Positions 46,101 through 59,582 of a stretch of 64,000 nucleotides of DNA are shown piece after piece. Origin of the DNA: an uncultured Microbacterium sp. (GTDB taxonomy: Bacteria > Actinomycetota > Actinomycetes > Actinomycetales > Microbacteriaceae); assembly GCA_913774845.1 (NCBI GenBank), contig CAJYJO010000015.1, forward strand, positions 17,866 through 81,865. The letters run 5' to 3'. The notes under the pieces were generated by a model that ran no database searches, was not told where the DNA came from, and saw only the letters and a list, made by a program, of their open reading frames with translations. Position 1 is the first letter of the stretch. Every line of letters begins with the position of its first letter. A program made the position numbers and the translations under genes.

Positions 46101-47677
<1,577 letters not shown>

Positions 47678-47681
<4 letters not shown>

Positions 47682-48199
47682 CGGTTGCCTTCCGAGGCGG
47701 AGACGGGAGCGGAGGCCTGCGCGGCCTCGCGCTCGGCGAGATAGGCGCGCACGCCGCGGGCGGTGCGCACTTCGAGGATGAAGGAGAGGAACGGCACCAC
47801 GCCACCGAGGGCGAGGAACACGAAGCGACGGAACGGCCACCGCATCAGGCTCCACACGCGGAAGCACGAGATGAGGTACACGACGTAGAACCAGCCGTGG
47901 GCGACGAGGATCGCGAGCGAGACGTTCACCCCGTCGCCGGTGGACAGGATCTCGCATCCGTTGCCGCCCGGCACGAACAGCGAGAACCACTGGCAGTCGG
48001 GGCCGGGCACGGCGTCGGCGAACCACAGGAAGCCGCCGGATCCGCCGAGGAACAGCTCCACGTGAATGGGGGTGTACTTCAGGATCATCTCGGCGACCAG
48101 CAGCAGCAGGCCGATACCGGTGATGATCGAGCAGATCTGGTAGAACTTCAGGGCTCCGCGGATCGCCGGGAACGAGGCGAGCTTGGGGGCGCGGGGCAT
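47678..48199 (-). CDS. DUF3817 membrane protein
   Basis: 173 residues with four hydrophobic segments. The DUF3817 pattern is at the C-terminal half: [30 protein letters not shown], then FLSFILEVR. It sits between the SURF1 and guaA genes, as in other Microbacteriaceae and related actinobacteria. The function is unknown; the family is often noted next to guaA. TAGACT lies seven bases before the ATG (48207-48212). It contains four cysteines in an external loop (GPDCQW, NGCEIL). Confidence 0.85.
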
Positions 48200-48209
48200 G
48201 GATGCCAGT

Positions 48210-49079
48210 CTAGTCGCGCGATTCCGCGGCGCCCGCCGCGAGGGCCTCGGACTGCTCGTCCTCGAGATCTTCGACCTCTTTCTCCCAGGCGTCGCGCGCG
48301 AGGCGGTACCAGAGGTAGAGGGCGAACCCCGCGAAGATGGCCCACTCGGCGGCGTAGAAGATGTTCAGCCAGTTGACGCGCGAGCGCTCGTCGGGCGCCG
48401 GCGAGGCGATGGGCTCGAGGGGCCCGATGGCCGTCTGCGAGGTCACGAACTGCCGGTACACGTCGAGGCCCTCGATGTCGTGCCAGCGGCCGAGCAGCAT
48501 GGCCGGCGACATGCGCGTGAGCGTCTGCGGGTCGGCCCCCGACGGCGGCACCGACGGTCCCTCGTCGGAGATGAGACGTCCGGTGATCTGCACGACCGCC
48601 GTGGGATCGGCCTCGGCGGCGGCGCGCAGGTCGGCGGCGGCCGCGTTCGCCGCGTCGCTCGAGGCCGTCCACCCGGTCGCGACGGCGATCGAGGTGGGCG
48701 CGTCGGCACCGGCGACGCGGAGCTGGCCGGTGACCCAGTACCCCTCGACGTCGTTGTTGAAGCGCGACGAGACGACGATGAAATCGGATGCCACCCACGT
48801 GCCGCTGACCTCGACCCGCTGTCCCACGAGGGGCTCGGGCAGATAGTCACCGGGCTGCACGATCTCGGCGAGCGGCTGCACGACCTCGGTCATTCCGGGC
48901 TCGGGCGGCGAGGTGTCGACGGCCCGGCCCAGCTGCCACTGGCCGAGCCAGGCGAGGGCGCCGGCGACCAGCAGCGAGAACGCCAGCAGCGCGATCCATC
49001 GCGGCCGCAGCATGACCTCCCGCAGCGTCGGCGGGAAGACCTGCGGCGGCAGCGGATCGGTCGCGGGGGCGGACGTCAT
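48210..49079 (-). CDS. SURF1-family protein
   Basis: 289 residues. Two membrane helices bracket the protein (about 27-47 and 240-262) and the middle part is extracellular, the SURF1 topology. Family marks are LGQWQLGR after the first helix and the late RVNWLNIFYAAEW before the second. SURF1 proteins help assemble haem A into the aa3-type cytochrome oxidase, which suits an aerobic actinobacterium. It follows the guaB3 gene by 14 bases in the same direction and is likely cotranscribed. Confidence 0.9.
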   Translation of the reverse strand: MTSAPATDPLPPQVFPPTLREVMLRPRWIALLAFSLLVAGALAWLGQWQLGRAVDTSPPEPGMTEVVQPLAEIVQPGDYLPEPLVGQRVEVSGTWVASDFIVVSSRFNNDVEGYWVTGQLRVAGADAPTSIAVATGWTASSDAANAAAADLRAAAEADPTAVVQITGRLISDEGPSVPPSGADPQTLTRMSPAMLLGRWHDIEGLDVYRQFVTSQTAIGPLEPIASPAPDERSRVNWLNIFYAAEWAIFAGFALYLWYRLARDAWEKEVEDLEDEQSEALAAGAAESRD

Positions 49080-49092
49080 GCGGTCTCCGGCG

Positions 49093-50214
49093 TCAGTGGC
49101 CGTAGGGGGCCACGACGACCTCGACGCGTTGGAACTCCTTGAGGTCGGAGTACCCGGTCGTGGCCATCGACTTCTTCAGCGCACCGATGAGGTTGGCGGT
49201 GCCGTCGGCGACGGGCGCCGGGCCGTAGAGCACCTGCTCGAGCGGGCCGACGCGGTCGACGGCGACGCGGCGTCCGCGCGGCAGCTTCGGGTGGTGCGAT
49301 TCGGGACCCCAGTGGAACCCCCGGCCCGGGGCGTCGGTCGCGCGCGCGAGCGCGACGCCGAGCATGACGGCGTCGGCGCCCATGGCGAGAGCCTTCACGA
49401 TGTCTCCGGAGGTGCCCACGCCGCCGTCGGCGATCACGTGCACGTAGCGTCCGCCGGACTCGTCGAGGTAGTCGCGGCGCGCGCCCGCGACGTCGGCGAC
49501 GGCCGTGGCCATGGGGGCGTGCAGGCCCAGGGTGGCGCGGGTGGTGGAGGCGGCTCCGCCGCCGAAGCCGACGAGCACGCCCGCCGCTCCCGTGCGCATG
49601 AGGTGCAGGGCCGCGGTGTAGGTGGCCGCGCCGCCCACGATGACCGGCACGTCGAGGTCGTAGATGAACTTCTTGAGGTTCAGGGGCTCGGCCACGCTCG
49701 ACACGTGCTCGGCCGAGACCGTGGTCCCTCGGATGACGAAGAGGTCGACGCCCGCGGCGACGACGGTCTCGTAGAGGTCGTGCGTGCGCTGCGGGGTGAG
49801 GGCGCCCGCGACGGTGACGCCCGCGGCGCGCACCTCGGCGAGACGGTCGCGCACGAGCTCTGGCTTGATGGGCTCGGCGTAGAGCTCCTGCATGCGACGC
49901 GTGGCGTCGGCCTCGGGCAGGGTGGCGATCTCGGCCAGGAGGGGCTCGGGGTCGTCGTACCGCGTCCATAGACCCTCGAGGTCGAGCACGCCGAGTCCGC
50001 CGAGTCGACCGAGCTCGATCGCGGTGCGCGGGCTCACGACGGAGTCCATCGGCGCGCCCAGCACGGGGATCTCGAACGGGAAGGCGTCGATCGTCCAGGC
50101 CGTCGAGACGTCTTCGGGGTTGCGCGTGCGCCGCGACGGCACGACGGCGATGTCGTCGAAGGTGTAGGCGCGGCGGGCGCGCTTGGCGCGGCCGAGATCG
50201 ATCTCCATGGTCAC
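49093..50214 (-). CDS. guaB3: GuaB3-type IMP dehydrogenase paralogue
   Basis: 373 residues, shorter than IMPDH because the CBS domains are missing. The barrel is IMPDH-like (DDIAVVPSRRTRNPEDV, APMDSVVS, VIADGGVGTSGDI) but the catalytic loop reads GGAASTTRATLG, with serine or alanine where IMPDH has cysteine. In actinobacteria this protein is called GuaB3; recent work on cyanobacterial relatives indicates GMP reductase activity for some GuaB3 proteins, but those keep a catalytic cysteine. The GTG at 50214 is chosen because TAGGCT stands six bases upstream (50221-50226). Confidence 0.88.
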   Translation of the reverse strand: MTMEIDLGRAKRARRAYTFDDIAVVPSRRTRNPEDVSTAWTIDAFPFEIPVLGAPMDSVVSPRTAIELGRLGGLGVLDLEGLWTRYDDPEPLLAEIATLPEADATRRMQELYAEPIKPELVRDRLAEVRAAGVTVAGALTPQRTHDLYETVVAAGVDLFVIRGTTVSAEHVSSVAEPLNLKKFIYDLDVPVIVGGAATYTAALHLMRTGAAGVLVGFGGGAASTTRATLGLHAPMATAVADVAGARRDYLDESGGRYVHVIADGGVGTSGDIVKALAMGADAVMLGVALARATDAPGRGFHWGPESHHPKLPRGRRVAVDRVGPLEQVLYGPAPVADGTANLIGALKKSMATTGYSDLKEFQRVEVVVAPYGH

Positions 50215-50223
50215 CCGCCCAGC

Positions 50224-50916
50224 CTACCCGCGCCCTTCGACATCGCCGTCGGCGGAGTCCGGCCGGGACCCCTCGGCATCCGGGGACGGCGGCGACACCG
50301 GGTCGTCCGCTCCGCGCAGGAGCCGGGTCAGCAGACCGTCGAAGACGAAGATGGCGAACCCGATCGAGCCGATCAGGGGGCTCAGGACCATCGCGATCGC
50401 GCTGAGGATCACGGCGCTCAGGCTCGCGCGCCCGAGCCGGCGGGCGTCGTCGGGTGCGAGATCGACGATCGCCCGCGATCGCACCGCCCACACCCACTGC
50501 AGCCAGCCCAGGACGATCGCGAGGAAGAAGTTGACGGGCAGGAGCACGCGTCCGAGCAGGAGGTCGGAGTGCGTGGTGTCGAGCGAGGAGGTGAAGGGCA
50601 CGAGCACGACGAGCAGGAGCCGGACGCTGTTGATCCACATCCCCGCGTCGTCGATGCGCACGATCCACTCGAACTGCCGCACGTGCGTCATCCACATCAC
50701 GCAGAGGATGAGGAAGCTGATCACGAACGAGAAGACCGGATGAGCGAGACCGAGGAGCGCCGCGGCCAGGTCTTCGTCGGTCCGCGGAGAGCCGAGCGAT
50801 TGGTCCGTGAGCCCGAGCACGAGCAGGGTCGCCGCGATCGCGAACACCCCGTCGGTGAAGGCCTCGGTCCGTCGCGCGGACAGCGACGCCTCGGGGGGAC
50901 GGCGCCGCCGGATCAT
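50224..50916 (-). CDS. TMEM175-family (DUF1211) potassium channel-like protein
   Basis: 230 residues with six hydrophobic segments. The first helix starts with the family motif RTEAFTDGVFAIAATLLVL, where TMEM175 proteins have the (F/Y)SDGVFAIA motif that lines the pore. Other marks: MWMTHVRQFEWI in the third helix and LVPFTSS. The C-terminal tail is acidic and proline-rich. Bacterial TMEM175 proteins form tetrameric potassium channels. TACGAT lies six bases before the ATG (50923-50928). The gene lies between guaB3 and the sugar-acid operon. Confidence 0.85.
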   Translation of the reverse strand: MIRRRRPPEASLSARRTEAFTDGVFAIAATLLVLGLTDQSLGSPRTDEDLAAALLGLAHPVFSFVISFLILCVMWMTHVRQFEWIVRIDDAGMWINSVRLLLVVLVPFTSSLDTTHSDLLLGRVLLPVNFFLAIVLGWLQWVWAVRSRAIVDLAPDDARRLGRASLSAVILSAIAMVLSPLIGSIGFAIFVFDGLLTRLLRGADDPVSPPSPDAEGSRPDSADGDVEGRG

Positions 50917-51000
50917 GCGCACATCGTAGCGACGCGGCCGATCGGAGGACAGACCGGTGCCGACGGGGCGCCCCACCAGCTCCCCGTCGGCACCGGAGCG

Positions 51001-52356
51001 TCAGATCTCTTCGAGCGGGACCGCTTTGGTCTCGCGGGCGAAGAGGTACACGACGCCTCCGACGGCCAGCAGCCCGGCGAAGAGGAAGAACGCCACCGGC
51101 ACCGCCTGGAGCGTGACGTTCTGCTTGATCATGCTGCCCCCGATGAGTCCGCCCATCAGCGCCGGCCCGACGATCTTCGCCGTCGCGCCGATCCCGTAGC
51201 CCAGCCCCAGACCGGTCGCCCGCACGCGGGTGGAGAACTGCTCCGCACCGAAGGCGTTCAGGATGCCGAAGGCGCCGTCGCCGAACATCATCGTGATCAG
51301 GATGCCGATGAAGAACACCCATCCGTTCGGCGCGAGCGCCGCGACGACCGCGCCCGCCGCCCCGAGCAGGCCGAACGAGAACATCACCGCCCGGCGGCCG
51401 ATCACGTCGGCGAGCCACGCGGCGCCAAGACGACCGACGACGTCGGCGAGGGAGACGAGGGTGAACAGCAGGCCGACCGTGGCGACGGTGAACCCGAACC
51501 CCTCCGCGAGCAGCGTCTGGCCCCAGGACTGGACGGTGAAGGTGCCGAGGATGAAGCAGAACGAGCCGAGCGTCACGATCACGAGCGGACGCAGGTGGCC
51601 GCGGAACAGCTCGGCGTACGTCGCCCGCTCGGTGCTCTCGAGCGGGACGAGCGGACCGACCTGCGCGACGGGGATCTGCATCGCCCAGGCGTACGAGGCG
51701 CGCGCGTCGTCGTCGCGACCGACCGATTGAAGGAACCTCGGCGACTCCGGCACGAAACGGAGCCAGACGAGCAGGAACACGGGGATGACGCCGAGGGCGA
51801 TGAGCCCGCGCCATCCGAGCGGCTCGCCCAACCATTGCTGCGCCTGCGCTCCGAGGAAGAGCCCGACGGGGATGAACACCGACGCCAACCCCGCCATGAG
51901 ACCCCGCTGCCGCGCGGGCACGAACTCCTGGACGTACGGGATCGACGAGATGTTCAGTCCGCCCACGCCGATGCCGACGCCGATGCGCAGGACGGCGAGC
52001 ATGAGCCAGCCGCGATCCGGCGTGAACAGCGACAGGAGCGTGAGCGCGACGAACGTGAGCACGCACCAGAAGAAGGCTCTTCGGCGCCCGATCCGGTCGG
52101 CGAGCCGGCCCCAGACGATCGCCCCCAGCACGGTGCCGAGTCCGGATCCGGCGAGGATGACGCCCGCTTCGAACCCCGTCAGGTTCCAGGGCTTGGTCAG
52201 CAGCGACACCACGAAGCCGATCAGGAAGAGATCGAAGAACTCCGAGATGTTGCCCGCGATGACGAGGGCGATGAGGTTGCGTTGGTTCCGCGAGAGCGGG
52301 CGCGCGTCGATCTGCGCCGTCGCGGTGGGTGTGGTGGTGCGGACGTCGTCGTCCAT
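51001..52356 (-). CDS. MFS sugar or sugar-acid transporter
   Basis: 451 residues with twelve membrane segments. Typical facilitator motifs are present: GRLADRIGRRRAFF between helices 2 and 3, VPESPRFLQSVGRDD after helix 6, and ADVIGRRAVMFSFG in the second half. This is the sugar porter (SP)-like pattern. It ends the six-gene operon with PfkB kinase, two epimerases, a decarboxylase-like and a lactonase-like enzyme, so it most likely imports the unphosphorylated substrate. AAAGG six bases before the ATG. The gap to the kinase gene is 40 bases, the only gap in the operon. Confidence 0.85.
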   Translation of the reverse strand: MDDDVRTTTPTATAQIDARPLSRNQRNLIALVIAGNISEFFDLFLIGFVVSLLTKPWNLTGFEAGVILAGSGLGTVLGAIVWGRLADRIGRRRAFFWCVLTFVALTLLSLFTPDRGWLMLAVLRIGVGIGVGGLNISSIPYVQEFVPARQRGLMAGLASVFIPVGLFLGAQAQQWLGEPLGWRGLIALGVIPVFLLVWLRFVPESPRFLQSVGRDDDARASYAWAMQIPVAQVGPLVPLESTERATYAELFRGHLRPLVIVTLGSFCFILGTFTVQSWGQTLLAEGFGFTVATVGLLFTLVSLADVVGRLGAAWLADVIGRRAVMFSFGLLGAAGAVVAALAPNGWVFFIGILITMMFGDGAFGILNAFGAEQFSTRVRATGLGLGYGIGATAKIVGPALMGGLIGGSMIKQNVTLQAVPVAFFLFAGLLAVGGVVYLFARETKAVPLEEI

Positions 52357-52396
52357 GGTCGACCTTTCGATGGAGGGTGGTGCGCCGGGGCGCGGG

Positions 52397-53344
52397 TCAG
52401 CGGATGATGTCGGTCGTCGTCGTCTGCGCGAGGTCGGGCCGACCGATGTGCGTGAGGTCGCCGTGGTGCGTGAGGGCGTACGTCGCGACGCGCATCCCGC
52501 GCTGAACCCCCGCCCGCACGTCGTCGGCGAGGTAGCCGTCGATCACACCGGCGACGAAGGAGTCCCCGGCGCCGGGCCGATCGACGATCGGCACGACCGA
52601 CACCGGGAACCGCGCCACTCCGCCCTCGTCGGCGACATAGACGTCGGCGGTCTGATCGGTGGAGACGACGTGGCGCGCCCCGAAGCGGTCGCGCAGTTCC
52701 TCGACGCAACCCGCGCCCTCGCGCGCGATGCCGAACACCGTGGCCGCGTCGCGGCGCGAACACAGCAGCAGGTCGGCGCGCGCCGCGATCGGCGAGAGCA
52801 CGCGGCGGGCGCGCTCGGCATCCCACAGCAGGGATCGGTAGTTGACGTCGAGCACGATCCGCACGCCCGCGCGTTCGGCGCGGGCCGTGAACTCCTCGAC
52901 AACGGCGGCCGTGCTGTCGGTGAGCGCCGCGGTGATGCCCGTGACGAACACCGTCCGCGTGTCGAGGAGCAGGTCCCAGTCGATGGCCGAGGGGTCGATC
53001 TCGCGGAAGGGCGTCCCGAGGCGGTCGTACGTCACGCGGGACGGCATCGGCGACTCCCCCGGTTCGAGGAAGTACAGCGCGACGCGGCCGGTGTCGGTGC
53101 GCACCACCGCGGACAGGTCGACGCCGACCGCGCGGTACTCGGCCAGGCAGCGCTCGGTCAGGTCGCCTCGCGGCATGACGGTGCACCACGACGTCGCGCG
53201 CCCGAACTGGGCGAGCACCCCCGCGACGTTCGCCTCGGATCCCGCCGGCGACAGACGCAGCTCGCGCGTGCTCGAGAGCCGATCCCCCGCGGGCACGGTG
53301 AGGCGGATCTGGCCCTCCCCGATGGTCGTCAGATCGAACCTCAC
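52397..53344 (-). CDS. PfkB-family carbohydrate kinase
   Basis: 315 residues, ribokinase fold. The second PfkB signature DRPGAGDSFVAG contains the catalytic aspartate near residue 262; early marks are PAGSEANVAGVLAQFG. It phosphorylates a sugar or sugar acid with ATP; relatives include 2-keto-3-deoxygluconate kinase. In this operon it replaces the phosphotransferase system of the classical L-ascorbate pathway, and would make the 5- or 6-phosphate used by the downstream enzymes. GTG start overlaps the aldolase-type gene stop by four bases. Confidence 0.88.
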   Translation of the reverse strand: MRFDLTTIGEGQIRLTVPAGDRLSSTRELRLSPAGSEANVAGVLAQFGRATSWCTVMPRGDLTERCLAEYRAVGVDLSAVVRTDTGRVALYFLEPGESPMPSRVTYDRLGTPFREIDPSAIDWDLLLDTRTVFVTGITAALTDSTAAVVEEFTARAERAGVRIVLDVNYRSLLWDAERARRVLSPIAARADLLLCSRRDAATVFGIAREGAGCVEELRDRFGARHVVSTDQTADVYVADEGGVARFPVSVVPIVDRPGAGDSFVAGVIDGYLADDVRAGVQRGMRVATYALTHHGDLTHIGRPDLAQTTTTDIIR

Positions 53345-54012
53345 GAGCGCACCCCCGTCGACGCGGCGGCCGTGCCATAGCGGTGCAGATAGCGGTCGTG
53401 GTTCGCGGCGATCTCGGCGTCGGGCAGCCGCTCGAGCGGCCCGAGCGCGAGGGCGGCGTGCACGGTGGCGGCGATGTCCTCGACCATGACCGCCGCCTTG
53501 AGGGCGGCCTCGATCGTCGCCCCGAGGGTGAAGACACCGTGCTGTTTCAGGAGGATGGCGGGGGAAGAGCCGATGGATGCCACGATCTCGCGGCCGATCT
53601 CCTCCCCGCCGATCGACGCGTAGCCGCCGCACGGCACGTCTCCGCCGAACTCGTCGGCCACCGCCGTGAGGACGCACGGGATGGGGCGTCCCGCCGCGGC
53701 GAAGGCGGTGGCGTACCGCGAGTGCGTGTGGACGACGGAGCCGACGTCGGGGCGGCGGGCGTAGACGGCGAGGTGCGAGGCCGTGTCGGACGAGGGGCCG
53801 CGGTGGCCTTCGACGACCGTGCCGTCGAGGGCCACCACGACGAGGTCGTCGACGCCCATGTGCTCGTAGCGCACTCCGGACGGCTTGATGACGATCGCAT
53901 CCCGGTCGGGCGTGATGGCCGACAGGTTGCCACCGGTCCATGCGACGAGTCCGGCGCGGGCGAGCGCGAGGTTGCCCTCGAGCACCTCCTCGCGCAGCTG
54001 ACGCAGGGTCAT
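53341..54012 (-). CDS. L-ribulose-5-phosphate 4-epimerase (AraD/UlaF/SgbE-like)
   Basis: 223 residues, class II aldolase/epimerase fold. H95 and H97 in VVHTHSRY and H158 in LKQHGVF provide the zinc site; D76 in PSSDT, D120 and E142 agree with the AraD active site. It interconverts L-ribulose-5-phosphate and D-xylulose-5-phosphate, the last step into the pentose phosphate pathway. Start and stop overlap the neighbours by four bases each. A fuculose- or rhamnulose-phosphate aldolase is less likely because the acidic residues at 120 and 142 fit epimerases and the context is ula-like. Confidence 0.85.
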   Translation of the reverse strand: MTLRQLREEVLEGNLALARAGLVAWTGGNLSAITPDRDAIVIKPSGVRYEHMGVDDLVVVALDGTVVEGHRGPSSDTASHLAVYARRPDVGSVVHTHSRYATAFAAAGRPIPCVLTAVADEFGGDVPCGGYASIGGEEIGREIVASIGSSPAILLKQHGVFTLGATIEAALKAAVMVEDIAATVHAALALGPLERLPDAEIAANHDRYLHRYGTAAASTGVRS

Positions 54013-54959
54013 GGGGTCTTCTCCTTCTCTCGGCGGGCGTCGTCGCCCGGGGGGTTCTCATCGACGGATGCCGCCCCGTCGGTCGCGGTCCGTGGACCGG
54101 GGCCGCCGCCGATGACGGCGATGCCCGCGCGGGCCAGCCGCTGCGCGACGAAGGCGCGAGCGGCGACGCAGCGCTCCCGGGCATCGGCCGGGTCGTTCCA
54201 CATCTCGATCAGCACGCGCCCCGCCCAGCGCTGACGGGCGAGCTCGGCGAACGCGGCGTCGAAGTCGGCGTCGCCGGCGCCGAACGGCACGCGTCGGGGC
54301 TCGCCGGGCCGGGCGTCCTTGACGTGCAGGGCGAGGATCCGCCCCCGGGCGGAGGCGAGCTCGGCGGTCACGTCGCCGCCGTGCTCGGCGACGTTGCCGA
54401 TGTCGGGATAGACCTGCAGCCAAGGACTGCCGATCTCGTCGACGATCGCGACGGCGTCGCCGATCGTGCGCACGTCGTGACCGTCGACGTTCTCGATGCC
54501 CAGGACGACGCCGGCGCGGGCGGCGTAGGGCACCGCCGCCGCCAGGGTGTCGAGGTAGCGCCGACGGGCTCCCGGGTCGGCGGGTTCGTAGTGGGCGTAG
54601 TAGCCCGCGACCTGCACGACGGCCACCCCCAGGTCGGCGGCCAGATCGATGCCGCGCCGGAAGACCTCCGCCGCGCGCGCCCGGATGCCGGCATCCACCG
54701 ATCCGGGCATCACGCGCCGGTGCAGGCTCAGGCAGAGCCCGCCGATGTCGACGCCGGCGCGGGCGGCCGCGGCCCGCACGCCCTCGCGGTGCGCCGCGCT
54801 CCACGTGAGCCGCCGCGACCGCTCGTCGCTCTCGTCGATCGACAGGTCGGTGAAGGAGAACCCGGTCCGTGAGACGTCGGCGAAGAAGGCATCCCAGTCG
54901 CTGATCGGGGGCAGCGCCTTCTCGTAGACGCCGAGCGCGACGCCCGACGCGGGGGTCAT
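54009..54959 (-). CDS. L-xylulose-5-phosphate 3-epimerase-like protein (UlaE family)
   Basis: 316 residues, AP-endonuclease-2-type TIM barrel. Marks of UlaE/SgbU are the N-terminal LGVYEKALP, GLCLSLHRRVMPGS, and the metal ligands E in LGIENVDGH, D/H in YPDIGNVAEH, H in LALHVKDA and E in VLIEMWND. It would convert L-xylulose-5-phosphate to L-ribulose-5-phosphate. The last 35 residues are an acidic, charged tail not typical of the family. Overlaps by four bases at both ends show tight coupling. Confidence 0.86.
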   Translation of the reverse strand: MTPASGVALGVYEKALPPISDWDAFFADVSRTGFSFTDLSIDESDERSRRLTWSAAHREGVRAAAARAGVDIGGLCLSLHRRVMPGSVDAGIRARAAEVFRRGIDLAADLGVAVVQVAGYYAHYEPADPGARRRYLDTLAAAVPYAARAGVVLGIENVDGHDVRTIGDAVAIVDEIGSPWLQVYPDIGNVAEHGGDVTAELASARGRILALHVKDARPGEPRRVPFGAGDADFDAAFAELARQRWAGRVLIEMWNDPADARERCVAARAFVAQRLARAGIAVIGGGPGPRTATDGAASVDENPPGDDARREKEKTP

Positions 54960-55609
54960 GACCACACCTCCCGCATCGCCGCGCGCAGCGACGCGGCCGC
55001 GGACGAGGGGTCGGCGGCCGACACGATCGACCGGCCCGCGATGACCACGCCGACCGGCGCGCCGGCGAGCGCGGGCAGGTCGCGCGGACCGATGCCCCCG
55101 GTCACCGTCACGGTGAATCCGAGGGCGTCGAGCGCGGCGATGCGGTCGACGTCCTCGGCCCCCCAGGAGAGCTCGCCCGCGGCCTCCCGGTCGCGCGAAC
55201 GCTTGACGATGACGTGTTCGACGCCGAGCTCGCGCCAGGCGCGGGCACGATCGGGATCGTAGGTCTCGCCCAGCTCGACCTGCACGGCGCCCCCGTGCCG
55301 GTGCGCGGCGGCGACGGTCTGCTCGATCGTCGTGAGCGAGGCGCCGGCCACGCAGCTGACCCAGTCGGCACCCGCCGAGAAGAACGGCGGAGCGAGGACC
55401 GATCCGGCCTCCGCGATCCGGGCGTCGGCGAGGATGGTGTGCTCGGGAGCGATCGCGCGGATCGCACGGATCGCGTGCAGACCCTCGGCGAAGAGCAGGA
55501 CGGTGCCGACCTCGATGACGTCGATGTCGGCCGCGCACCGCGCCAGCGGCGCCAGGGCCGCGGGCAGGTCGGCGCAGTCGAGCGCGAGCTGCAGGCGCGG
55601 GGTGCTCAC
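54956..55609 (-). CDS. 3-keto-L-gulonate-6-phosphate decarboxylase-like protein with altered active site
   Basis: 217 residues, OMP decarboxylase superfamily; aligned by eye the numbering matches UlaD. D11, E33, D62 and R139 are kept. The invariant lysine of DxKxxD is arginine (R64) and its last aspartate is glutamate (E67): LADARIAEAG. The histidine at 136 is lysine (VKRSRD). The phosphate-binding TVTGG and VVIAGRSI segments are intact. UlaD makes L-xylulose-5-phosphate and CO2 from 3-keto-L-gulonate-6-phosphate. The fold is therefore clear, but the reaction may differ. GTG start, four-base overlaps at both ends. Confidence 0.82.
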   Translation of the reverse strand: MSTPRLQLALDCADLPAALAPLARCAADIDVIEVGTVLLFAEGLHAIRAIRAIAPEHTILADARIAEAGSVLAPPFFSAGADWVSCVAGASLTTIEQTVAAAHRHGGAVQVELGETYDPDRARAWRELGVEHVIVKRSRDREAAGELSWGAEDVDRIAALDALGFTVTVTGGIGPRDLPALAGAPVGVVIAGRSIVSAADPSSAAASLRAAMREVWS

Positions 55610-56592
55610 GCCTGGTCCCGGAACGCGAAGAAGGTCTGGCCGTTGCCGGAGAGCAGCCGTTCCACGTCGGCACGGTCGAAGCCCTCGTCGAGCATGCGCG
55701 GACCGTCGACTCCGGCGTTGAAGTCCATACCGGTGACCGCCCCGTACGCCTTCTGGTACCCGCGCTTGCCCGAATCGGTGCCGAGCAGCAACCGGTCGCC
55801 GTACCCACGCGCGATCAGCTCGCGGAACTCCATGATGCGGTTGGAGTCGGGCTGGTACTTGATGCGGTACGTGCCGTCGAGCTCCAGGTAGGCGCCGAGA
55901 TCGAGGATCTGCTGCAGGTAGTACACATCGGCGTTGCGCTGGATGTGCCCGACCGCGATGTGGTCGGCCGGGACGCCGTACCCCGTGAGCAGTTCGACCT
56001 GCTCGAGGCCGCACGTGCCGTAGGTGGTGTGCGTGTTGATCGGGCAGCCCGTCTCGAGCGAGGCGATCGAGGCCGCCTCCATGCACTTGTTCTCGAACGG
56101 CGTGATGCGTCCGTACTCGGAGGCCACCTTGATCACGCCGGCGCGCACCGTGGTGCGCTCGACGATCGGCCCGGAGTAGTCGTGCCGGTCGATCCCCTCG
56201 GTGATGTCGGCGATCAGCAGTTCGGCGATCGTGTCGACCGAGTAGCGGTTGACCCAGTGCGAGCGGGTCTCGAGGTACATCTTCTCGCGGTGGAAGCCGG
56301 TGGCGGCGATCACCTGCAGCCCCGGCACCCGCCGGTTGACCTCGACGAGCTTGTCGACGTCGCGCCCGCAATTGGCGGGGCACATGTCGACGACGGTCCC
56401 GCCGTCGGCCCACCTCCTGCTCGCCTCGACGAAGTACTCGGCCTCCTCGACCGCCTTGTCGACGTCGTCGAGCAGATGGTCGGCGTCGAGATACACCTCT
56501 CCGGCGCCGGTGCGGATGAGGTGGTCGTGGCTGTTGACGACGCCCAGGGTCGAGGGGGCGACGTCGCCGAGGATGGTGCGCGCGAAGGTCAC
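55606..56592 (-). CDS. Phosphotriesterase-family lactonase-like hydrolase
   Basis: 328 residues, COG1735. The binuclear metal site is complete: H22 and H24 (NSHDHL), the carboxylated lysine K155 (GVIKVAS), H188 (NTHTTYG), H216 (VGHIQRN) and D273 (GTDSGK). Relatives encoded in sugar operons hydrolyse phosphorylated 1,4-lactones of pentonates, so it may take the place of UlaG, the L-ascorbate-6-phosphate lactonase. First gene of the operon; GTG start with AAGGAG six bases before. Organophosphate hydrolysis is unlikely as natural role. Confidence 0.87.
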   Translation of the reverse strand: MTFARTILGDVAPSTLGVVNSHDHLIRTGAGEVYLDADHLLDDVDKAVEEAEYFVEASRRWADGGTVVDMCPANCGRDVDKLVEVNRRVPGLQVIAATGFHREKMYLETRSHWVNRYSVDTIAELLIADITEGIDRHDYSGPIVERTTVRAGVIKVASEYGRITPFENKCMEAASIASLETGCPINTHTTYGTCGLEQVELLTGYGVPADHIAVGHIQRNADVYYLQQILDLGAYLELDGTYRIKYQPDSNRIMEFRELIARGYGDRLLLGTDSGKRGYQKAYGAVTGMDFNAGVDGPRMLDEGFDRADVERLLSGNGQTFFAFRDQA

Positions 56593-56693
56593 GTGATGCT
56601 CCTTGTGTCGAGCGGAGCGTCGGACTCGGCACGCTCCGCGGGGCCGGTATCGCCGACGTTAGGAAGACCTGTCGCCGGCGCGGTGGTCGCATG

Positions 56694-56707
56694 TAAACAT
56701 ATGTTCA
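56694..56707. promoter_or_regulatory. SorC-type operator between the regulator and the sugar-acid operon
   Basis: TAAACATATGTTCA is a 14-base dyad with one mismatch (TGAACATATGTTCA would be perfect), in an otherwise GC-rich divergent promoter region of 190 bases. It lies 102 bases before the operon's first gene and 76 before the regulator. Typical target for SorC/DeoR-type sugar-phosphate sensors. Confidence 0.6.
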
Positions 56708-56782
56708 GGCTCGATCCACCGACGGCCTCCCCGGCGACCGAGAATCGGCTCCTGCCGGGGTTTCGCGAGGGAGGTCACCGCC

Positions 56783-57775
56783 ATGAGCCACAGAGAATCC
56801 GCACACGTGTTCACCCGTGACGACGACCGGGATCACCTGCGACTGCTCCTGCGGATCGCCCGCCTGTACTGGATCGACGGACTCGACCAGAAGGAGGTCG
56901 CAGCGGCGGTCGGGTACTCGCGGCCCACCGTGTCGCGGCTGCTCGCCCAGGCCCGCGCCCGCGGGATCGTCACCGTGCAGGTCTCGCACCCGGTGGAATC
57001 GGCCCTCGCGTGCGAGACCCGGCTGCGCTCGCGCTTCGGACTGACGGAGGCGGCCGTCGCGCTCGACCGCGGGGGCGGTTCGGCCGCGGCCGTCGGCGGG
57101 ATCGCCGCGCGGCTGATCGTCCGCCGCGGCGGCGAGCGCGCGGTCGTGGCCCTCTCGAACGGGTCGTCCCTCTCCGCTCTGGTCTCGGCGATGCCGCCGC
57201 AGCGATGGCCGGGATCCCACGTCGTGCAGATGATCGGCGCGATCGCGGGCGCCGACACAGACGCGCAGCTCGTGGACAGCCCGGAGCTGTGCCGCCGCCT
57301 GGCCGATCGCCTCGGCGGCGCCCATCGCCCGCTGCCGGTGCCGATCGTCGTGTCGAGCGCGACGATGGCCCGCGCGATGGCGCGCGAGGAATCGGTGCGG
57401 ACCACCCTCGAGCTCGCCGGCCGTGCCGATATCGCCGCGTGCGGGGTGGGGGCGGTGGATGCCGACGGCTCGTCGGGACGGATCCTCCGGGCCTACGCGA
57501 CTCCCGCCGTCGACGCGGAGGTGCGCCGGGGAGGCGGCATCGCGCACCTGGCCGGGCACCATTTCGACGCGCAGGGGCGGCACGTGCCGACGTCGTTGTG
57601 CGAGCGCCTCATCGCCCTCGATCCGGCGCGGCTGGCCGATGTCGCCGTGAGCCTCGCGGTGGCCTGGGGACGTGAGAAGGTCGCCGCACTGCACGCCATC
57701 CTGCGGACGGGTTACGTCAACGCCCTCGCCACCGACGAGCCGACGGCGCGAGCACTGCTGGACTTCCGCCCCTGA
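56783..57775 (+). CDS. SorC-family transcriptional regulator
   Basis: 330 residues, ATG with GAGGGAGG upstream. N-terminal helix-turn-helix: LRIARLYWIDGLDQKEVAAA, YSRPTVSRLLAQARARGIV. The rest is the SorC sugar-phosphate-binding domain: SNGSSLSALVSAMP, QMIGAIAGADTDAQ, ADIAACGVGAVDADGSSGRIL, and a late AVAWGREKVAALHAILRTGYVNALATDE. It is divergent from the sugar-acid operon and almost certainly controls it in response to one of its phosphorylated intermediates. A perfect hairpin follows. Confidence 0.92.
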   Translation: MSHRESAHVFTRDDDRDHLRLLLRIARLYWIDGLDQKEVAAAVGYSRPTVSRLLAQARARGIVTVQVSHPVESALACETRLRSRFGLTEAAVALDRGGGSAAAVGGIAARLIVRRGGERAVVALSNGSSLSALVSAMPPQRWPGSHVVQMIGAIAGADTDAQLVDSPELCRRLADRLGGAHRPLPVPIVVSSATMARAMAREESVRTTLELAGRADIAACGVGAVDADGSSGRILRAYATPAVDAEVRRGGGIAHLAGHHFDAQGRHVPTSLCERLIALDPARLADVAVSLAVAWGREKVAALHAILRTGYVNALATDEPTARALLDFRP

Positions 57776-57781
57776 CGACGG

Positions 57782-57815
57782 CGAAGGGGCCGGGCCTCAC
57801 GGCCCGGCCCCTTCG
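57782..57815. terminator. Bidirectional hairpin terminator
   Basis: A perfect 15-base stem (57782-57796 with 57801-57815) and a TCAC loop, between the convergent SorC and guaB genes. Confidence 0.85.
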
Positions 57816-57822
57816 GACCGAT

Positions 57823-59582
<1,760 letters not shown>

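Follow-up and report, generated by a model that had tools for sequence, protein, structure and literature searches.

Centering a comparative genomic analysis on a 64,000-nucleotide stretch of DNA from an uncultured Microbacterium sp. (hereafter the window), we identify a UlaD-like protein that departs from the canonical 3-keto-L-gulonate-6-phosphate decarboxylases (KGPDC) at three active-site positions. We propose that it probably catalyzes their ordinary net reaction, namely the conversion of 3-keto-L-gulonate-6-phosphate to L-xylulose-5-phosphate, by means of an altered catalytic set and as part of a PTS-free operon for L-ascorbate. The basis of this reading is homology, the predicted fold, residue conservation, the operon, and the exchange of two types of lactonase, the PTE-family protein and UlaG, next to the same UlaD. 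That a single active-site frame can support different chemistries is well known from KGPDC, 3-hexulose-6-phosphate synthase (HPS) and OMPDC. A conserved subfamily that lacks the motif lysine, and for which UlaG allows a substrate to be proposed, makes the need for this lysine directly testable. The proposed pathway would be a PTS-free route for L-ascorbate in Actinobacteria, with likely roles for a PfkB-family kinase and a PTE-family lactonase. It also carries a warning to annotators that the loss of a motif need not mean a changed or lost function.

The window protein is a member of the PF00215 family (95.7 bits; Pfam cut-off 27). The top NCBIfam models that it matches are the two KGPDC/UlaD models, and it stays below the curated cut-off of each (PRK13306, 208.6 bits against 250; PRK13305, 205.7 bits against 294), as it does for the HPS model TIGR03128 (132.3 bits against 200); an orthologue (L048) scores 228.3 and 207.5 bits with PRK13306 and PRK13305 respectively. 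The nearest solved structure is the E. coli KGPDC (PDB: 1kv8; e-value = 3.3e-49, residues 2-216), with which it shares 41-42% identity. Foldseek searches with an AlphaFold model (pLDDT 88.5) whose input was the window protein together with an orthologue recovered KGPDC chains at ranks 1-26 among the 50 matches listed, followed by HPS and then OMPDC structures. The TM-scores were 0.90-0.94 with the E. coli KGPDC chains and, among these listed matches, 0.83-0.86 with HPS and 0.74-0.79 with OMPDC. The predicted fold is that of the HUMPS/OMPDC suprafamily, which HPS shares, with KGPDC as the nearest member.

The lysine of the DxKxxD motif is needed in the characterized KGPDC and HPS enzymes, and H136 is part of a proton relay in KGPDC. 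Mutants of E. coli KGPDC at both positions are named in PDB titles (1so4, K64A; 1so3, H136A). In E. coli numbering the window protein reads D11, E33, D62, R64, E67, E112, K136, S138, R139, T169, G191 and R192. Comparison with the KGPDC row for 1xbv, from the available part of Table 1 of PMC5980557, reveals that D11, E33, D62, E112, S138, R139, T169, G191 and R192 of that row are kept, and that K64, D67 and H136 are replaced (K64R, D67E and H136K), converting the motif from DxKxxD to DxRxxE. Several less conserved columns also differ from this row (I37V, C39L, I87V, C88A and T114G). The original prediction had pointed to these three substitutions and to the persistence of D11, E33, D62 and R139; the latter are confirmed by the alignment to the 1xbv row, and the former are real, the same three residues being found in 11 further genes. 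As K64 and D67 are common to the KGPDC, HPS and OMPDC rows seen of this table, the absence of both is a strong departure. The HPS rows seen also keep DxKxxD and have D, A and G where KGPDC has E112, T169 and R192, and the same source presents KGPDC and HPS as related and promiscuous (PMC5980557). In our alignment 20 positions, the sites of the three substitutions included, divide the 12 proteins with R64, E67 and K136 (hereafter R/E/K) from 10 canonical ones, suggesting that changes to the pocket may go beyond these three sites.

To gauge the conservation of these residues the window UlaD was searched against overlapping samples of its family (398 genomes), the class (394), a second family, f4 (186), the phylum (396), the genus Corynebacterium (201) and the order of Corynebacterium (200). 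The family sample yielded 113 places in 112 genomes at an e-value of 1e-20. The motif was read in the 30 places that had loci: the window itself, one further R/E/K gene, one with R64/E67/H136 (REH), four with R64/R67/H136 (RRH) and 23 HPS-type homologues with DLKTMD. Matches at 1e-28 or better came from 18 genomes, all 18 with R64, and no K64 UlaD was found at that level in the sampled family, class, f4, Corynebacterium, order and phylum genomes. R/E/K occurs in 12 genes, those of the window, Corynebacterium phocae and 10 other genomes; the 11 other than the window gene are 50-64% identical to it in protein sequence and constitute all the homologues found at an identity of at least 50%. REH is seen in two genes (46-49% identical to the window UlaD) and RRH in three (39-43%), plus L008. 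The residue table does not count L008, a kin of L007, nor L047, a second copy of L046. The canonical set, consisting of 1kv8 and nine UlaD proteins fetched from the 42 plasmid records with a match, has K64/D67/H136 in 10 of 10 cases. Whether the triple is conserved in PTE-UlaD-UlaE operons, as the original prediction had asked, thus has a divided answer: all 11 homologues at an identity of at least 50% share it, but two distant PTE operons have R64/E67/H136 and three have R64/R67/H136. Given that R64 is found with H136 in both of these groups, the triple is not all-or-none. The same two REH and three RRH genes make it less likely that K136 simply takes the place of K64. The RRH group additionally has A169 and S192 in place of T169 and R192, and judging from these residues its UlaD-like protein may well have another substrate. 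No relatives were found in viral contigs (0 among 85 pattern matches). Eight records of a phage collection did match, the majority of them large records from Salmonella or short pieces without annotation, and were set aside.

The codons for R64, E67 and K136 in the window are CGG, GAG and AAG, and the synonymous codons vary among the orthologues (CGG, CGC, AGG and AGA for R64; GAG and GAA for E67; AAG and AAA for K136). Five close orthologue pairs gave dN/dS values of 0.04-0.14; those between the window gene and its orthologues (0.14-0.54) have dS near or at saturation and are hence uninformative for the window gene itself. No stops were found inside the listed orthologous frames. In a tree computed without the three sites and with HPS omitted, R64 rows split from K64 rows with a support of 99/98, compared to 89/98 in a tree with all sites and the HPS rows, a difference that cautions against long branches. 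The R/E/K rows form one side of a branch supported at 52/34 in the former tree, and their grouping has a support of 87/93 in the latter. Parsimony places a single change to K136 on this R/E/K branch, weakly supported as it is (52/34).

The gene for the window UlaD is the second of a minus-strand series in the order PTE, UlaD-like, UlaE-like, UlaF-like, PfkB and then MFS, with a divergently oriented regulator (Table 1). From PTE through PfkB, adjacent genes overlap by 4 nucleotides at all four junctions, which bears out the earlier description of a tightly coupled, intact operon.

Table 1. Genes of the UlaD-like operon and its regulator in the window
Feature	Position	Strand	Length (aa)	Basis
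MFS transporter, proposed substrate uptake	51001..52356	minus	451	PF07690/PF00083
PfkB-family sugar kinase, proposed L-ascorbate 6-kinase	52397..53344	minus	315	PF00294
UlaF/AraD-like L-ribulose-5-phosphate 4-epimerase	53341..54012	minus	223	PRK06557, 1jdi
UlaE-like L-xylulose-5-phosphate/L-ribulose-5-phosphate 3-epimerase	54009..54959	minus	316	PRK13209, PRK13210, 3cqh
UlaD/KGPDC-like decarboxylase, R64/E67/K136	54956..55609	minus (reads 55609 to 54956)	217	GTG start, TGA stop; translation, NCBIfam, 1kv8 match, AlphaFold model
PTE-family protein, probable sugar-phosphate lactonase replacing UlaG	55606..56592	minus	328	PF02126
SorC/DeoR-type sugar-binding regulator, divergent	56783..57775	plus	330	PF04198

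The UlaE-like protein scores 308.3 bits with PRK13209 (cut-off 317) and 247.6 bits with PRK13210 (cut-off 200), and matches the UlaE structure 3cqh with an e-value of 6e-63. The UlaF-like protein exceeds the cut-off of PRK06557 (299.8 bits against 251) and matches 1jdi (e-value = 7.7e-40). For the PfkB protein the nearest structure is the KDG kinase 2afb; for the PTE protein the nearest structures are 3msr/3ovg and 3pnz, and the nearest NCBIfam model, 'phospho-furanose lactonase' (NF045706), is not reached (239.9 bits against a cut-off of 630). The window proteins, as aligned, have the metal-binding residues of UlaE, AraD/UlaF and PTE. We set 17 neighborhood loci, one of which (L047) is the second copy of L046, against the window operon. 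Homologues of PfkB, UlaE and UlaF were present in all 17, that of the MFS protein in 14 (it is absent from L054, L055 and L056) and that of the regulator in 16 (absent from L055). The same operon recurs in the family of the window (f1), in family f4 and in Corynebacterium. In the window, the operon, its regulator and a gene for a TMEM175-like channel (50224-50976) are flanked by guaB (57823-59325) on one side and by guaB3 and guaA (49093-50214 and 46101-47681) on the other. All three gua genes are on the minus strand (window 46101-59325), and the operon may have been inserted into a gene cluster for guanine nucleotides.

Examination of the lactonase genes across these neighborhoods revealed an exchange that bears directly on the substrate. 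PTE adjoins UlaD in nine of the 12 R/E/K genomes, the window included. The remaining three (G924, G793 and G794) lack it in the neighborhood stretches, which is the scope of this absence, and carry UlaG instead, which scores 608-620 bits against 'L-ascorbate 6-phosphate lactonase', a single-function model (cut-off 306). No UlaG was found in the PTE-bearing neighborhoods. The absence of UlaG was established genome-wide for the window genome, in which none was found, and for family f4, where it occurs in just these three of 186 genomes, and at the level of neighborhoods for the others. The occurrence of UlaG in exactly the three R/E/K loci without a neighboring PTE indicates that PTE and UlaG substitute for one another next to the same UlaD; parsimony gives two changes, in a region of the tree that is weakly resolved. 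The UlaD next to UlaG has a triple identical to that of the window, and the three UlaG loci also hold UlaE and UlaF. This context makes 3-keto-L-gulonate-6-phosphate the most likely substrate of the R/E/K UlaD, and the ordinary decarboxylation its most likely reaction.

Comparison with known systems extends this picture. Like the window, the E. coli KGPDC system has UlaE and UlaF downstream, and its KGPDC has the D11/E33/D62, E112, R139, T169 and R192 of the window protein; unlike it, the window has K64R, D67E and H136K, misses the KGPDC cut-offs, and has a kinase and an MFS protein for the PTS and PTE for UlaG. The E. coli-type ula regulon as seen in Pantoea (L066) codes for the same D-E-F enzymes, with PTS uptake and phosphorylation and a canonical K64 UlaD as differences, and its UlaG is the lactonase that occurs with R64 UlaD in the three actinobacteria. 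The ula-type operon of Mycoplasmopsis (L070 and L074), like that of the window, combines a PTE-family lactonase with UlaD, UlaE and UlaF; it differs in having an ascorbate PTS and a UlaD with K64/D67/H136 (2 of 2 records fetched), and its PTE is only 35% identical to that of the window. As UlaG is also found with K64 UlaD, for example in Pantoea, all four combinations of lactonase type (PTE or UlaG) and residue 64 (K or R) exist. The type of lactonase is thus independent of residue 64, as would be the case if the two lactonases supplied one reaction with one and the same substrate. In the available part of PMC10971088, D-xylono- and L-arabino-1,4-lactone-5-phosphate are given as the substrates of the characterized PTE-type lactonases of Mycoplasma.

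In E. coli, L-ascorbate-6-phosphate is made during import through UlaABC, as given in the accessible part of PMC3219644. NCBIfam and Pfam scans of eight operon-region proteins of the window found no PTS family, and the EIIC-GAT permease (PF03611), the PTS permease of the ascorbate/galactitol type, was not found in the window genome. Nine of the 18 R64 genomes lack it, including that of the window and the UlaG-bearing G924. The other nine, including the UlaG-bearing G793 and G794, have one or two such permeases elsewhere, so ascorbate may be taken up by a PTS there. Uptake of free L-ascorbate followed by its ATP-dependent phosphorylation would be the simplest reading of the operon, though we know of no PfkB-family kinase that phosphorylates ascorbate. 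Each R64 genome has a single place matching at the level of UlaD, other than G924 with its two identical copies. With respect to PF00215, the 18 genomes each have the UlaD gene and one other strong member, presumed to be PyrF, which in G015 is only partly matched; further matches are seen in G244 (48.8 bits) and, as weak partial ones, in G223, G478, G994 and G1015. No second, canonical UlaD was found in the R64 genomes by searches with the window UlaD and PF00215, which makes the R64 protein the most likely KGPDC for this pathway.

Against this background we weighed the alternatives. The concerted change of three catalytic positions, held in near relatives, the 20 positions dividing the R/E/K group from canonical UlaD, the missed UlaD-family cut-offs, and the Mycoplasma PTE relatives, which in the part of PMC10971088 available are characterized on five-carbon lactone phosphates, might all be explained by a different reaction or substrate, such as another 3-keto sugar-acid phosphate derived from a different lactone phosphate, with UlaE and UlaF serving that path. 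We nevertheless consider this unlikely: UlaG, at twice its cut-off, accompanies the same R/E/K UlaD in three genomes, UlaE and UlaF in 17 of 17 neighborhood loci point to an L-pentulose-5-phosphate product, PTE is found with both K64 and R64 UlaD, and no second, canonical UlaD to perform the step was found in the R64 genomes. Hence, the proposal in the original prediction that the substitutions imply a changed reaction finds no support, as far as gene context can tell, in the three loci where the R/E/K UlaD sits with UlaG, UlaE and UlaF.

It is distinctly less probable that the R64 UlaD has no catalytic activity and is retained in some other capacity, decarboxylation taking place elsewhere or spontaneously. 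Beta-keto acids can indeed undergo slow unaided decarboxylation. The protein has also lost a lysine common to the characterized families in the available part of PMC5980557; however, D11, E33, D62, E112, R139, T169 and R192 are kept, close pairs show purifying selection, and the genomes have no second UlaD-level match. An HPS-like aldolase with formaldehyde chemistry appears more improbable still. Going by the portion of PMC5980557 available, the promiscuous KGPDC and HPS enzymes are relatives, and the RRH sister group, with its A169 and S192, is nearer HPS, but E112, R139, T169 and R192 of the window protein differ from the letters of the HPS rows seen, the 23 HPS-type homologues in the same family read DLKTMD, and there is no hexuloisomerase among the eight operon-region proteins scanned. 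The signature letters E112, T169, R139 and R192 and the DxRxxE motif led us to reject an HPS function. Finally, that the three codons reflect an error in sequencing or a decaying gene has a negligible probability. No support for either was found, the same residues are specified by different synonymous codons in 12 genomes, and the listed orthologous frames have no internal stop; the 11 orthologues with R/E/K and varying codons rule both out. The earlier contention that this is not decay therefore stands, given the triple in 11 of 11 homologues at an identity of at least 50%, the dN/dS of 0.04-0.14 in five pairs and the intact operon.

Returning to the ordinary decarboxylation in a PTS-free L-ascorbate operon, the KGPDC rather than HPS letters at positions 112, 139, 169 and 192, judged by the rows seen, count in its favor, and the missed KGPDC cut-offs, the loss of both K64 and D67 and the five-carbon substrates of the Mycoplasma PTE proteins in the available part of their description count against it. 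We infer the substrate, the roles of the kinase, transporter and PTE protein, and what R64, E67 and K136 do in catalysis, as follows. The MFS protein would import L-ascorbate, which the PfkB kinase would convert to L-ascorbate-6-phosphate; the PTE-family protein, or UlaG in some relatives, would open the lactone to give 3-keto-L-gulonate-6-phosphate; the R64 UlaD would decarboxylate this to L-xylulose-5-phosphate; and UlaE and UlaF would lead on to L-ribulose-5-phosphate and D-xylulose-5-phosphate. In the active site, E33, D62, E112, R139 and T169 would stay in place, R64 would provide a positive charge at the enediolate as K64 does, E67 in place of D67 would adjust to R64, and K136 would replace the proton-relay histidine. 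The full combination, in which a KGPDC subfamily performs the same decarboxylation with a rebuilt site where R64 stabilizes the enediolate and K136 delivers the proton, PfkB makes ascorbate-6-phosphate and PTE replaces UlaG without a PTS, we would give an even chance of being correct. Proton delivery by K136 might perhaps entail another stereochemistry or pH dependence. To our knowledge no member of the DxKxxD suprafamily has been demonstrated to function in the absence of the lysine, and an R64 KGPDC would be the first. We found no paper on an R64 KGPDC or on a PTE/PfkB ascorbate operon in the open-licence PMC literature, beyond which such work may be in print.

Some individual loci show further variation. 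An UlaD-annotated K64 gene on a Ligilactobacillus salivarius plasmid (L072:1-9112) occurs with gnd, a fructose-type PTS, fructose-6-phosphate aldolase and transketolase; no UlaE or UlaF is seen in this stretch, and the gene probably serves another pathway. The RRH sister group (L057, L058 and L059, from G199, G085 and G223 respectively) has an operon similar to that of the window, and that of L057 includes a transketolase split in two genes. The draft of G924 has the locus twice (L046 on C81 and L047 on C83) with identical UlaD, reflecting either a recent duplication or an assembly artefact. Behind the R64/E67/H136 operon of G877 (L054:11723-17068) are genes for a solute-binding protein, two ABC-transporter-like frames and a sulfatase, the last scoring 285 bits with choline-sulfatase (cut-off 433), and the compound imported at this locus might be a sulfate ester. 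In G015 (L055), a one-contig genome of 927,303 bases, the operon is kept and is adjoined by another type of MFS transporter.
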